A stretch of 64,000 nucleotides of DNA, from NCBI RefSeq assembly GCF_024125425.1, contig NZ_JAMXWN010000008.1, positions 62,001 through 126,000 on the forward strand, read 5' to 3'. Of the stretch, positions 59,585 to 63,870 are shown piece after piece. The notes below the pieces were generated by a model that was given only the letters and a program-made list of their open reading frames with translations, ran no database searches and was not told the DNA's origin. Source of the DNA: Sporolactobacillus kofuensis. Lineage in GTDB: Bacteria > Bacillota > Bacilli > Bacillales > Sporolactobacillaceae. Position 1 is the first letter of the stretch. Each line of letters opens with the position of its first letter. Made by a program: the position numbers and the translations under genes.

Positions 59585-60475
59585 TTAAACCGAATCCTTT
59601 TTTTGTAGTGTATTTTTCCGCTCATATTCCGGCTCAGCGTGGATGAGAATTTGTGCCCGAGGTATCTCACTCTTTATGCTCTCCTCGATCCGATCCGATA
59701 ATTCTTCTACACTATCGATCTTAAGGTGAGAAGGAACGACAAGATGAAATTCAATATACTCTTCCGGACCTGAACGTCTTGTTCTAAAGTTATGCAATTC
59801 AATGAACTCATTCTTATAGCCTTCAATAATTTCCATAATTTTATTTTCTTCTTTGTCCGACAGTCGTGCGTCTAATAACGGAGGAAAGGATACCCACATG
59901 AGTTTGGCGGCCTCAAACATGATATAGCATGCAAGAACAATACCGATAATTGGATCCAAAAAAGACCATCCGGTTAATGTCGCCAGCAGCAAGCTGACGG
60001 CAACGCCGAGCGAAGTATATACATCCGTCAATAAATGGAAGGCATTGGATTTCATTGCCACGGAGTGGGTCCGCTCTGCTGTTTTATCAATTAAACGTGA
60101 TACGAAAAAGTTGATCGTCGCGCCGACCAGCATCACCACTACACCCAATGTCGGAAGCTGTATAGGTTCAGGATGAATCAATTTTTTTACCGATTCATAG
60201 ATGATCCATATACCCGCCACATAGATCAGCAGCGTCTCAATCGTTCCTGATATATTTTCAATTTTTCCATGTCCATAGGGATGGATTTTATCGGCTGGTC
60301 TGCCTGATATGCGTACTGAGAAAAAAGCAATGAGTGAGGCTGCCAAGTCTAGTGAAGTGTGTATTGCTTCAGACAACACAGCAACAGAGCCTGTAATCAT
60401 CGCAACAATAACTTTTAATGAAACAACAAGTGTATTGCTTACTACAGACAGAAATGCTACTCTTGACGGTTCCAT
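59585..60475 (-). CDS. cation diffusion facilitator (FieF-like)
   Basis: This 296-residue exporter has six membrane helices. The metal-site residues are in helix 2 (LSEAIHTSLDLAA, His and Asp) and helix 5 (NAFHLLTDVYTSLGV, His and Asp), and the C-terminal cytoplasmic domain (EEYIEFHLVVPSHLKID, with ILIHAEPE) is the regulatory metallochaperone-like fold. His-Asp type site A suggests zinc, iron or manganese. The frame opens with TTG 60478; ATG 60475 is equally placed behind GAGGGTGG. It is transcribed the same way as the two-component operon but with its own terminator between. Confidence 0.94.
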   Translation of the reverse strand: MEPSRVAFLSVVSNTLVVSLKVIVAMITGSVAVLSEAIHTSLDLAASLIAFFSVRISGRPADKIHPYGHGKIENISGTIETLLIYVAGIWIIYESVKKLIHPEPIQLPTLGVVVMLVGATINFFVSRLIDKTAERTHSVAMKSNAFHLLTDVYTSLGVAVSLLLATLTGWSFLDPIIGIVLACYIMFEAAKLMWVSFPPLLDARLSDKEENKIMEIIEGYKNEFIELHNFRTRRSGPEEYIEFHLVVPSHLKIDSVEELSDRIEESIKSEIPRAQILIHAEPEYERKNTLQKKDSV

Positions 60476-60642
60476 CAATTACCACCCTCGTCTTTATAAC
60501 GTAGATCCATGGTAACAAAAGGAATGTGGGTGAGTCTACAGCAATCTTTTTTCAATGAAGAAGGTAATTTATTGTAAGAAAAATGTGTTTTACGTGAGCA
60601 ACATTCACAAATACATGATGATCATGAAAAGCATAAAATAGA

Positions 60643-60668
60643 GACGAAAACCCAATCGAGTTCTCATC
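60643..60668 (-). terminator. probable terminator of the small membrane-protein unit
   Basis: On the minus strand GATGAGAAC pairs with GTTTTCGTC (two wobble pairs), followed by TCTATTTTATG. It lies 40 bases after the His-rich protein stop. Confidence 0.45.
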
Positions 60669-60708
60669 CCTTTGAAGAGTAGTCTTTTAACTCCTTATTT
60701 TTGGTAGA

Positions 60709-60990
60709 TCAATGACGATGTCCATTACCCTTCTTCATCATTGCCGGCATCATGAATAGATGCATTAACGGACATATGAGGACTGCTGCCAGTATGAGCA
60801 AGCTGTTTGATCCCGAAAATCCACCAGTAAAGAACAGACCAATGATCACGGCTATGGGGATAATCAGACATACGGCCATCATCAAATTATGGTTGTGTTG
60901 ATGTATTCCATGAGCACTTTGATTTTCATTCTCATGACTATGATTCTTACTGCTCTGATTGTGATTATCATGATTTCCACAGCAATTCAT
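60709..60990 (-). CDS. His-rich small membrane protein, DUF2933-like
   Basis: This 93-residue protein has a soluble N-terminus of about 35 residues crowded with His, Asn and Cys (MNCCGNHDNHNQSSKNHSHE, then IHQHNHN). Two membrane helices follow, then CPLMHLFMMPAMMKKGNGHRH. The CPLM-x-L-x-MM motif also occurs in the neighbouring 62-residue protein. Cys, Met and His ligands suggest soft-metal binding (copper or silver). It resembles DUF2933. The ATG follows AAGGAGGAATG. It lies 23 bases after the 62-residue gene and shares its promoter. Confidence 0.75.
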   Translation of the reverse strand: MNCCGNHDNHNQSSKNHSHENENQSAHGIHQHNHNLMMAVCLIIPIAVIIGLFFTGGFSGSNSLLILAAVLICPLMHLFMMPAMMKKGNGHRH

Positions 60991-61013: not shown

Positions 61014-61202
61014 TTATTTATTTTTGAGCTGCTGAAGTTCTTCACGCAGAAGATTATTTTGTTCTTTCAACTCGTTAAGCTCATTCGAAGCTCTTTGGTG
61101 ATTCGAGTGATCCTTTTGCGAATGGCCCCCCTTCATCATCATTAACATCATTGGGAGCATCATGAGCGGACAAGCAAGTAGCGCAAGCCAACTTAAATCC
61201 AT
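61014..61202 (-). CDS. 62-residue membrane protein with CPLM motif and coiled coil
   Basis: This protein has one N-terminal membrane segment (MDLSWLALLACPLMMLPMML) very rich in Met with a CPLM motif, then GGHSQKDHSNHQ and a C-terminal heptad-like coiled coil (NELNELKEQNNLLREELQQL). Similar proteins with this layout occur beside copper loci. The start follows AGGAGG by 8 bases. Directly upstream is a promoter with three 11-base-spaced repeats matching those before the response regulator gene, so it is a likely target of that regulator. Confidence 0.75.
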   Translation of the reverse strand: MDLSWLALLACPLMMLPMMLMMMKGGHSQKDHSNHQRASNELNELKEQNNLLREELQQLKNK

Positions 61203-61226: not shown

Positions 61227-61350
61227 ACTAAGGATTGTAGACAAGAATTGTGTTGATTTTGTGTAGAATACATGTAGAAAGCGAGTATTTAAAAAAGAAA
61301 AAAGGTTTTCGTAATTACCCATTATTTCTGTAATAAAACCATAAATACAA
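61227..61350. repeat. duplicated segment, copy 2 (internal promoter)
   Basis: It aligns with 63742-63870: ACTAAGGATTGTAG, then AAGAATTGTGTTGA, TTTGTGTAGAA, ACATGTAGAA, and later the GTAATTACCCATTATTTCTG segment. It contains the internal promoter and the 3' end of the 66-residue gene. The upstream copy contains the promoter before the response regulator and the decayed end of a paralogue of that gene. Confidence 0.75.
61234..61279 (-). promoter_or_regulatory. promoter P2 with three 11-bp-spaced repeats
   Basis: On the plus strand TGTTGAT (61251), TGTAGAA (61262) and TGTAGAA (61273) are exactly 11 bases apart. The minus-strand -10 is TACAAT (61239-61234), 11 bases from the nearest repeat. There is no good -35. 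This is the layout of an OmpR-family activated promoter. Confidence 0.7.
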
Positions 61351-61515
61351 GCCGCTAAAGACAAGTACAGGGCATGCCGCCCACATGCACACTCTGAAAA
61401 AAGTCCTTCCAAAAGCAAGAAAACTCTCATGACCAAAAGAATTAGCAGAGAAAAACAGGCAAGTCAGTCCGATAATCATGAGAAATAGGGAAAAGCACCA
61501 ATCAATTTTTTTCAT
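61315..61515 (-). CDS. 66-residue two-helix membrane protein
   Basis: This protein has two membrane helices (FSLFLMIIGLTCLFFSA and CPVLVFSGLYLWFYY) joined by a short loop with FFRVCMWAACP, ending RNNG. It has several Cys and Met residues. The ATG at 61515 follows GGGAAGGGATGAGTC and overlaps the histidine kinase end by 14 bases, so it is part of that operon. I do not recognise a family. The fragment left of the response regulator encodes a similar tail (WFHHRNYG), so this gene once had a paralogue. Confidence 0.68.
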   Translation of the reverse strand: MKKIDWCFSLFLMIIGLTCLFFSANSFGHESFLAFGRTFFRVCMWAACPVLVFSGLYLWFYYRNNG

Positions 61516-62920
61516 GACTCATCCCTTCCCTTCTCTGCTTTTTTTGTGAAAAAGTGAGTATAAAAGTAGTCCCGACACCAATTTGGCTGTCAACTCGAAC
61601 CGTTCCGCCTTGCATTTCAACGTATTTTTTGACGATGGACAAACCTAAGCCCGTCCCGCCAAATTCACGAGCTCTAGACTTTTCCACTCGATAAAATCGC
61701 TCAAAAATGTAGGGTAATTCATTTTTTTCGATACCGACACCTGTGTCGGAAATGGAGAGAATGGTTGATTCCTTTTGTCTTGTCAGACGAACATGAACAC
61801 CTCCGCTCTCTGTATAGCGGATGGCATTTTCCAATAGGTTTAACAGGACTTGCTCCATCCGTTTACGATCTCCACGAATGAACGGAATACGGTCATATAG
61901 CTCCATCTGCAAACTCAGCCGTTTATTTTCTGCCTTAAGTTTCACTTTCTGAACCGCAGTTGTCACAACTTGTTTCAGGTCCAGCCACTCCATTGATAAT
62001 TTGAGCTGCCCTTCCTCCATCTTTGAGAGATCGAACAAATCATTTATTAAGTGTTCAAGACGAACGGATTCCTCATAAATGATTGAGAGGTACTGTTCTT
62101 TTTCTTTTTCAGATTGAATCATCCCTTCATCCAGAACCTTAGAATAGCCCTGAAGATAAGTAACCGGCGTTCGAAGTTCATGTGAAATATTGGAAAAAAA
62201 AGCTCGTCGCGTATCCCGATATCTTTGCAGGCTTGTGGCAAGATCGTTAATCGAATGCCCAAGCAAACCGATTTCATCTCGACTTCCAATCTGAAGTCGA
62301 GCATCCCAATTGCCTTTTGCCATTTTCTCAGTCATTTGCTGCATTTGAAGCAACGGGCGGGACAGAAGTTTACTCATAATCAGGATCATGCCTAAAGCAA
62401 GTAGAAATGCACCTAGTCCAGACAGGATCAGCAGGTTCCGAAGCCGTTGCAAGGAATCATCTACCTTGTTCATTGAAGCAACGATATAAATCGCCGGTTT
62501 TGTCGCGTTGCCCACCTTTATCGGCTTACCAACGACATAAAAGCGATTTCCTTTTGGATCACTTGTTTGAAATTCTGTAGGGTGACCGGCGAGCAGACGT
62601 CGGGTATCATGCACTCTGAGCAATGACAGATTCTCCGGGTGTTCTCCCGAAAGTGTCACGATCTTTCCGTCAGCATTCACCCATAAGAACTTCACGTCTG
62701 AAAACTCGGCAAATGTTCGGATCATCAATCGGGATGAAGTATCACCGGATTCAACCATCGTAGTAAAATGCGCAGCGATTTCCTGCGCGTCCTCTCTCAT
62801 TTGCATCTCATAAAAGTTTGTGAATAACCGATCAACAGCAAGACCCAAGGACACAAGTATGATAATGATCAGCACCAAAATCGCAGCACCCAGTTTTAGG
62901 CCGATTCGATTAATGGTCAT
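61502..62920 (-). CDS. sensor histidine kinase
   Basis: This 472-residue kinase has a membrane helix at about 8-30, an extracellular sensor domain to about 160, a second helix, a HAMP domain (SRPLLQMQQMTEKMAKGNW), the phosphoacceptor H-box FFSNISHELRTPVTYL, and the ATPase N, G1 and G2 boxes (LLNLLENAIRY, SDTGVGI, GGTGLGLSIVKKYVE). Its start overlaps the response regulator stop by 4 bases. The signal may be a metal or envelope stress, judged from the downstream small proteins. Confidence 0.93.
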   Translation of the reverse strand: MTINRIGLKLGAAILVLIIIILVSLGLAVDRLFTNFYEMQMREDAQEIAAHFTTMVESGDTSSRLMIRTFAEFSDVKFLWVNADGKIVTLSGEHPENLSLLRVHDTRRLLAGHPTEFQTSDPKGNRFYVVGKPIKVGNATKPAIYIVASMNKVDDSLQRLRNLLILSGLGAFLLALGMILIMSKLLSRPLLQMQQMTEKMAKGNWDARLQIGSRDEIGLLGHSINDLATSLQRYRDTRRAFFSNISHELRTPVTYLQGYSKVLDEGMIQSEKEKEQYLSIIYEESVRLEHLINDLFDLSKMEEGQLKLSMEWLDLKQVVTTAVQKVKLKAENKRLSLQMELYDRIPFIRGDRKRMEQVLLNLLENAIRYTESGGVHVRLTRQKESTILSISDTGVGIEKNELPYIFERFYRVEKSRAREFGGTGLGLSIVKKYVEMQGGTVRVDSQIGVGTTFILTFSQKKQRREGMSHEKN

Positions 62921-63624
62921 GATTTTACCTCAGGATTGAATTTATAGCCAATCCCCCATGCTGTCTGAATTGGGGAATAATGCAACCCACCCTTTTTCAG
63001 CTTTTCTCTGATGTTTTTCACATGTATGTCAACCACTCGTGCGTCGCCTTCAAAGTCAAAGCCCCATATCTTTTCAATCAGTTGTTCTCTTGAAAGAACA
63101 CGCCCACTGTTGATTGCGAGCATGTCAAATAGATCGAACTCCTTTTGGGTAAGTTCAAGCGGGCGATCCTGAATCATGACCTGCCTCCCATCTCTATCAA
63201 TCGACAAGGATGGAAAGTTCAGAACATCATTTTCCATTTGATTTGAGGAGGCTGTTGATGCGCGGCGGATCAATGCATGCACACGGGCAATCAATTCATC
63301 GGGATCAAAGGGTTTGGTTAAATAATCATCTGCACCAAGTTCCAGTCCCTGGACTTTCTCTTTGGTTTCACCTAAAGCCGTTAGCATTAGGATGGGGACA
63401 GAATGTGTCTTCCGAATAGACTGACAAACCTGCCAACCATCCATGTTCGGCATCATTACATCAAGAATAATCAAATCGAAAGACTGATTTTGAATTTTTA
63501 GCAGCGCTTCATGACCTTCAGCCGCCTCAACAGTATCGAATCCTTCCTTTGATAAATAAATGCGCAATAAATTACGCAATTTCCAGTCATCATCAACCAT
63601 TAAGACTTTTAATTTTTTCAACAT
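62917..63624 (-). CDS. OmpR/PhoB-family response regulator
   Basis: This 235-residue regulator has a receiver domain with phosphoacceptor D55 in LIILDVMMPNMDGW, the acidic pair near the start (VDDDW), the lysine in GADDYLTKPFDPDEL and a C-terminal winged helix ending RVVDIHVKNIREKLKK. ATG 63624 follows AGAAGG closely; a GTG 6 bases earlier is possible. It is the first gene of an operon with the kinase and a small membrane protein. Three 11-base-spaced repeats in its promoter are the likely target, implying autoregulation. Confidence 0.93.
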   Translation of the reverse strand: MLKKLKVLMVDDDWKLRNLLRIYLSKEGFDTVEAAEGHEALLKIQNQSFDLIILDVMMPNMDGWQVCQSIRKTHSVPILMLTALGETKEKVQGLELGADDYLTKPFDPDELIARVHALIRRASTASSNQMENDVLNFPSLSIDRDGRQVMIQDRPLELTQKEFDLFDMLAINSGRVLSREQLIEKIWGFDFEGDARVVDIHVKNIREKLKKGGLHYSPIQTAWGIGYKFNPEVKS

Positions 63625-63661
63625 GATCACCTTCTCTCATCATACAGGAAAAAGTAAGAGT

Positions 63662-63687
63662 CAAGGCGAAAAGCCTTGGGATTTTTT
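63662..63687 (+). other. hairpin in the response-regulator leader
   Basis: CAAGGC pairs with GCCTTG across a 5-base loop, and six T residues follow on the plus strand after GGA. On the minus strand, which is the mRNA of the operon, no T run follows. It may be a weak plus-strand terminator. Confidence 0.35.
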
Positions 63688-63741
63688 GTTCCATAGTAAA
63701 GTACTCCCCGTCCATTATTTTTCAGGTCAATGTTTATTTTT

Positions 63742-63870
63742 TACTAAAGATTATAAGTAAGAATTATGTGGAATTTGTGTTGAAAACATGTCGAATCCAA
63801 TTTATTTTTAAAGAAAAGTGAGAGCTGAATTACCCATAATTTCTGTGATGAAACCAGCAATCAGACTGTC
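63742..63870. repeat. duplicated segment, copy 1 (upstream promoter)
   Basis: It aligns base by base with 61227-61350 for most of its length, including the three repeats, the -10 and the GAATTACCCATAATTTCTGT block. The minus strand of that block codes for WFHHRNYG and a stop, like WFYYRNNG in the 66-residue protein, but an in-frame stop lies about 5 codons upstream. It is a decayed gene end. Confidence 0.72.
63750..63795 (-). promoter_or_regulatory. promoter P1 with three 11-bp-spaced repeats
   Basis: On the plus strand TGTGGAA (63767), TGTTGAA (63778) and TGTCGAA (63789) are exactly 11 bases apart. The minus-strand -10 is TATAAT (63755-63750), 11 bases from the nearest repeat. The layout equals P2. 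It drives the response regulator operon with a leader of about 120 bases. Confidence 0.72.

Follow-up and report, generated by a model that had tools for sequence, protein, structure and literature searches.

Two promoters in a 64,000-nucleotide stretch of the Sporolactobacillus kofuensis genome (the window), P1 and P2, carry arrays of three short direct repeats, and we consider these arrays very probably the operator of the OmpR/PhoB-family response regulator encoded beside them. The regulator would respond to envelope damage or to a soft metal, probably copper, and would act by class II activation, with P1 as its autoregulatory promoter. Arrays and two-component system co-occur in the genus, and the spacing to the -10 box is kept where arrays recur in front of further genes, which fits the operator of a cognate activator.

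Two repeat arrays in a two-component locus

The locus is transcribed from the minus strand, in the order P1, response regulator, histidine kinase, 66-aa gene, P2, 62-aa gene, 93-aa gene, hairpin and a separate CDF gene. Its features are as follows.

63767..63795, minus strand: P1 array, three TTCNACA units at an 11-bp step, ahead of the response regulator; matrix score 58.0.
63750..63755, minus strand: P1 -10 box TATAAT, 11 bp past the last unit.
62917..63630, minus strand: response regulator of the OmpR/PhoB family, 237 aa; Pfam Response_reg and Trans_reg_C.
61502..62920, minus strand: histidine kinase with a WalK-like extracytoplasmic domain, 472 aa; HAMP, HisKA and HATPase_c; fold match to the WalK sensor domain.
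61315..61515, minus strand: 66-aa hydrophobic protein, two transmembrane segments by reading; adjoins the kinase both in this genus and at further Bacillales loci.
61251..61279, minus strand: P2 array, three TTCNACA units (the third ATCAACA) at an 11-bp step; genus-conserved; matrix score 56.1.
61234..61239, minus strand: P2 -10 box TACAAT, 11 bp past the last unit.
61014..61202, minus strand: 62-aa small membrane protein with a CPLMMLPMM motif, a coiled C-terminus and a sub-threshold DUF2933 match (15.9 bits, cut-off 21); kept after P2 in relatives.
60709..60990, minus strand: 93-aa small membrane protein with a His-rich N-terminus and DUF2933 in its C-terminal half (22.3 bits, cut-off 21); conserved.
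60640..60671, minus strand: terminator-like hairpin (14 pairs and a T run) closing the P2 operon ahead of the CDF gene.

The first-pass annotation had described the units as TGTNGAA; on the transcribed strand they read TTCNACA, and both promoters serve leftward transcription. P1 is TTCGACA-N4-TTCAACA-N4-TTCCACA-N11-TATAAT, a pattern match with 0 mismatches, and P2 is TTCTACA-N4-TTCTACA-N4-ATCAACA-N11-TACAAT, with 1 mismatch. Both arrays lie where they had been placed, each 11 bp before its -10 box. That they are identical triple repeats holds for layout and spacing but not for every base, the third unit of P2 departing from the pattern, and the reported lack of a good -35 agrees with our analysis, in which neither promoter received a sigma-70 -35/-10 call.

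Could such arrays be chance repeats in AT-rich intergenic DNA? We regard the probability of this as negligible, and the window shuffles together with the genome pattern search rule it out. The window contains two matches with at most 2 mismatches, against a mean of 0.0 (zero expected) across 60 dinucleotide-preserving shuffles of the same stretch. When the window was searched without a preset motif, for 7-mers of whatever sequence in three copies 11 bp apart, P1 was the sole result, with 0.2 expected. In the whole genome (2.96 Mb), the search for the triple unit at 11-bp steps that the annotation had proposed yields only P1 and P2 at up to 1 mismatch, and the extra matches at 3 mismatches are as frequent as those of the reversed-pattern control. 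What chance has in its favour is that pattern matches with 2 mismatches occur at control level in genomes of the same order; against it stand the conservation of the arrays, their recurrence and their co-occurrence with the two-component system. Scored with a matrix of 15 foreign sites, both window sites being excluded from training, P1 reaches 58.0 and P2 56.1, whereas the next-best independent position of the window, on either strand, scores 2.2. This matrix scan covered both strands of the window, and our genome-wide statements for this strain rest on pattern searches, which found no array site beyond P1 and P2.

The regulator matches PF00072 and PF00486 above the Pfam cut-offs, in line with its earlier assignment as an OmpR-family winged-helix protein, and its gene adjoins that of the kinase. 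A third small membrane protein gene, that of the 66-aa protein in the interval between kinase and P2, had been overlooked. No terminator-like site is called in this interval. The 66-aa protein has no Pfam match and is also encoded beside the kinase in several other Bacillales genera (L049, L050, L052, L053, L076, L078, L149, L172); it is possibly an accessory protein of the kinase. Of the two proteins behind P2, only the 93-aa one passes the cut-off for DUF2933 (PF11666). Membership of the CDF transporter (59585-60478) in the P2 operon is ruled out by the 14-pair hairpin and by the different genes found at this place in relatives.

Arrays accompany the two-component system in Sporolactobacillus

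The kinase is encoded in 13 of 15 genus genomes, our own included, with 65-81% identity in the other 12. An array with at most 1 mismatch is present in 13 of the 13 genomes that carry the two-component system, which are related and hence not independent counts, and the two genomes without the system (G004 and G005) are also without an array. The internal promoter proposed for the small membrane proteins is supported by conservation: in every genus relative with the system, the P2 units stand in register before these genes. In the P2 homologues the -10 box is fixed at 11 bp past the last unit while the flanks vary, and the unit farthest from the promoter is most often degraded.

How far beyond the genus does the motif extend? 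In the rest of the order sample, matches with up to 1 mismatch occur only in G038, G142 and G025. The last, from another genus (its match is Terrilactibacillus tamarindi), holds both the system and arrays, nearly identical to those of Sporolactobacillus, which apparently reached it by transfer. The exact match in G038 (L150) is without a -10 box at the right distance. A motif widespread in the order is ruled out, since same-order matches mostly have 2 mismatches and are about as frequent as those of the reversed control. The proximal unit followed by 11 bp and a -10 box is also found outside the genus: TTCTACACAGAAATCACA-N11-TACAAT in L148, and in Paenibacillus TTCTACA-N11-TATGAT before the orthologous small protein (L076) and ATCTACA-N11-TATAAT before the regulator (L075). 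Such unit-plus-minus-10 matches number 5 in 19 upstream regions, against 0.14 expected in shuffles.

Relatives of the window strain bear further sites. An array precedes a copper-type P1B ATPase gene (TIGR01511, 604 bits, cut-off 397) followed by a cupredoxin gene (P3); a two-unit site precedes lgt (P4); an array precedes an Rrf2 regulator or M23 peptidase gene (P5); and a two-unit site heads a pspA operon that runs into regulator and kinase (P0). Before these unrelated genes, the 11-bp gap to the -10 box is retained. The notion of a small regulon thus holds for the window genome with its two sites, but not for some relatives, which have four to six.

Two observations concern the surroundings of these sites. 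In S. vineae (L172:2053-2391), the divergent region between a gene for a SHOCT-domain small protein and copA holds variant repeats facing both ways, the minus-strand one being ATCTACACAGTTTCCCCACA-N11-TACACT. A region with the two-component system, Cu-ATPase, MerR/MerA, lgt and FtsH-like genes is nearly identical in several Sporolactobacillus species and in Terrilactibacillus (L158, L159, L162, L167, L176), and in L158 it includes IstA/IstB-like transposase genes; this suggests that the metal-resistance region spread recently as an island by horizontal transfer.

P1 as a diverged copy of P2

Judged by alignment, P1 is a diverged duplicate of P2 together with the tail of the gene that precedes P2.

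63736..63856, minus strand: segment copied from the P2 region, approximate extent; 118-bp alignment, 73% identity, E 1e-15; includes what is left of the 66-aa gene's end (frame WFHHRNYG-stop).

The alignment extends into the end of the 66-aa gene, with TGGTTTCATCACAGAAATTATGGGTAA at P1 and TGGTTTTATTACAGAAATAATGGGTAA at P2. As a genus-wide promoter of the regulator P1 is ruled out, no relative examined having an array of P2 quality directly before the regulator. Conservation in related genomes, the absence of which the annotation had named as evidence against its proposal, is therefore found for P2 and, in the strict sense, not for P1. Weaker candidates for autoregulatory sites do exist in relatives. 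P0 is separated from the regulator by other genes, at a distance of about 1 to 3.3 kb upstream; further candidates lie close to the regulator (L171, L174, L175) or head copA-copZ, some 3.3 kb upstream (L170, L172, L175). The autoregulation originally proposed through P1 needs revision to this extent: P1 is unconserved, and the candidate sites of relatives are weaker and lie elsewhere. Autoregulation may be general, but its form in the window would be local.

Is P1 in use at all? It could be a dead relic of the duplication, in which case another, weak promoter closer to the regulator gene would drive its transcription. Consistent with this, P1 lies within the degenerate copy of the 66-aa gene tail, a hairpin (CAAGGCTTTTCGCCTTG) separates it from the regulator gene, and the segment CTGTATGATGAGAGAAGGTGAT before the regulator start is also found in relatives without P1. 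We nevertheless judge a dead relic improbable: on the foreign-trained matrix P1 scores no lower than P2, with a better -10 box, and its units and -10 box have been kept although the copied segment drifted to 73% identity overall. An intact array and -10 box in drifted surroundings argue that P1 is used.

The hairpin of the P1-to-regulator interval (63661-63679), whose T run is better on the plus strand, might cause attenuation of P1 transcripts or be left over from the terminator of a gene upstream. The segment CTGTATGATGAGAGAAGGTGAT (63630-63652, just before the regulator start) is conserved genus-wide irrespective of a nearby array and looks like a ribosome site, with perhaps a second -10 box.

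Which regulator binds the arrays?

The regulator falls under every NCBIfam equivalog cut-off shown: it scores 217.7 bits with YycF (cut-off 340), 210.4 with PhoB (TIGR02154, cut-off 296.2) and 185.3 with CopR/SilR/CztR (TIGR01387, cut-off 279.2). The kinase scores 303 bits with the WalK model (cut-off 725). Under these curated cut-offs an identity of the regulator as WalR, PhoB or CopR/SilR is ruled out, and we therefore file it only as a member of an OmpR/PhoB-family two-component system.

The arrays might nonetheless be occupied by another OmpR-family protein of this cell; WalR and PhoP, for example, likewise have boxes with an 11-bp step. Footprinted VicR/WalR boxes are 7+4 direct repeats with the consensus TGTWAHA-N4-TGTWAHA (PMC4168254), the same layout as here, and our regulator and the sensor domain of its kinase resemble the Wal system. 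Three points make binding by another regulator very improbable. WalRK is reported in all Firmicutes (PMC9210968), yet the genomes lacking our two-component system, G004 and G005, have no array; the arrays cluster around the two-component genes; and the unit, TGTNGAA, carries a G in place of an A of the Wal box, TGTWAHA. Written as TGTWAH-N5-TGTWAH, too, the WalRK box is unmatched at the fifth position, while the step is the same.

Copper or envelope stress as the probable signal

What does the kinase respond to? The genes behind arrays in relatives point to a soft metal, copper or another one, as do the CopZ-type HMA proteins near the two-component system in relatives (upstream HMA copper chaperones among them), the multicopper oxidases near it in L148 and L075, and the context of DUF2933 proteins, which marine bacteria encode within clusters for copper ATPase and cupredoxin (PMC8478169). 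Relatives have copper-handling genes (Cu-ATPase, cupredoxin) behind the same operator; the window genome offers just the small membrane proteins. An orthologue of the relatives' array-controlled copper ATPase was not found in the window genome (the best match has 46% identity and a CsoR-like gene beside it), and a cupredoxin search of this genome, run without a positive control, came back empty, so that the copper reading rests on the relatives. The window genome has a separate CsoR-like/CopA/CopZ cluster (G000:C41, L183), which is without repeat arrays.

For the structural model of the sensor domain (mean pLDDT 80), the nearest match is the WalK extracytoplasmic domain, with TM 0.57-0.60. The family shows no conserved set of copper ligands, since none of its Cys, His or Met residues is invariant. 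With a WalK-like model and no invariant metal ligand, direct copper sensing stays an inference. The PspA, Lgt and M23 peptidase targets of relatives suggest envelope stress as a possible primary signal. The system could thus be primarily an envelope-stress one, WalRK- or CssRS-like, with metal genes co-regulated as metals damage the envelope; the WalK-like fold and the envelope genes behind array sites favour this. We rate it as unlikely, though deserving serious consideration, for the small proteins rich in Cys, Met and His are the most constant targets across the genus, and genes for a copper ATPase, a cupredoxin, HMA chaperones and multicopper oxidases turn up repeatedly in the vicinity. 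Given the repeats before copper-pump genes in relatives, we most likely see a copper-stress switch that is undescribed but of an ordinary kind.

Proposed mechanism

In PhoB class II activation, direct repeats at an 11-bp step lie a short fixed distance before a -10 box without a -35, and the regulator replaces -35 recognition. In the present system, the kinase would sense either a metal, in all likelihood a soft one such as copper, or the resulting envelope damage. By analogy with PhoB, the phosphorylated regulator would bind head to tail to the three TTCNACA units, one helical turn apart, and would bring in RNA polymerase where a -10 box is present but a usable -35 is not. At P2, this would add a regulated output of the two small membrane proteins, which are rich in Cys, Met and His, to what read-through from the kinase operon provides; at P1, it would place the operon of regulator, kinase and 66-aa gene under direct positive autoregulation in the window strain. 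We infer binding, phosphorylation dependence, activation rather than repression, signal and expression levels from the DNA and its comparison with relatives.

More tentatively, and at somewhat less than an even chance, this could be a distinct Bacillales branch of copper/envelope-stress two-component systems with an operator code of its own (TTCNACA in as many as three copies, the last one 11 bp from the -10 box), a conserved kinase-adjoining 66-aa membrane protein that modulates signalling, and, in this strain, a rewired feedback in which the promoter copy P1 replaces the upstream autoregulatory site of relatives.

For most microbiologists this would be an ordinary, well-behaved two-component regulon. 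Its interest lies in a precise, testable operator for a branch that fails the curated WalR, PhoB and CopR/SilR models, with a tie to copper genes; in a likely example of feedback acquired through copying of a target promoter; and in a regulatory context for two kinds of tiny membrane protein, the DUF2933-like ones and the 66-aa neighbour of the kinase.

Comparison with known systems

We found nothing relevant on copper two-component systems of Sporolactobacillus in the open-access literature, and our search there gave no description of the present system. WalR/VicR (YycF) of Firmicutes is similar in being an OmpR-family regulator with 11-bp (7+4) direct repeats, and its kinase is the closest to our sensor model. 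The unit here is TGTNGAA, usually in three copies, one more than in WalR/VicR, and unlike WalRK the system is dispensable, being absent from 2 of 15 genus genomes. The Pho boxes of PhoB/PhoP share the 11-bp-step direct repeats, the fixed short distance to the -10 box and the missing -35, but differ in unit sequence and target genes.

Among metal-responsive systems, AgrR of Cupriavidus metallidurans combines type II activation, positive autoregulation and, at some sites, extra in-phase direct repeats, but its core is an inverted repeat (ATTACA, 6-4-6) (PMC7380067). A cluster from copper-resistant Alteromonas strains comprises Cu-ATPase, cupredoxin, DUF2933 and isoprenylcysteine methyltransferase genes (PMC8478169), and L158 likewise unites ATPase, cupredoxin, DUF2933-like and methyltransferase genes. 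The Alteromonas cluster adjoins a MerR-family gene and is MerR-controlled, in contrast to the two-component system with repeat-array promoters found here. CopRS of Corynebacterium glutamicum is, by analogy, the closest functional parallel: this Gram-positive two-component system likewise uses a direct-repeat site, counts a copper ATPase among its targets and activates its own operon, though it has one site genome-wide, in which a 2-bp linker joins two 9-bp repeats, and a different unit, TGAAGATTT (PMC3140484).
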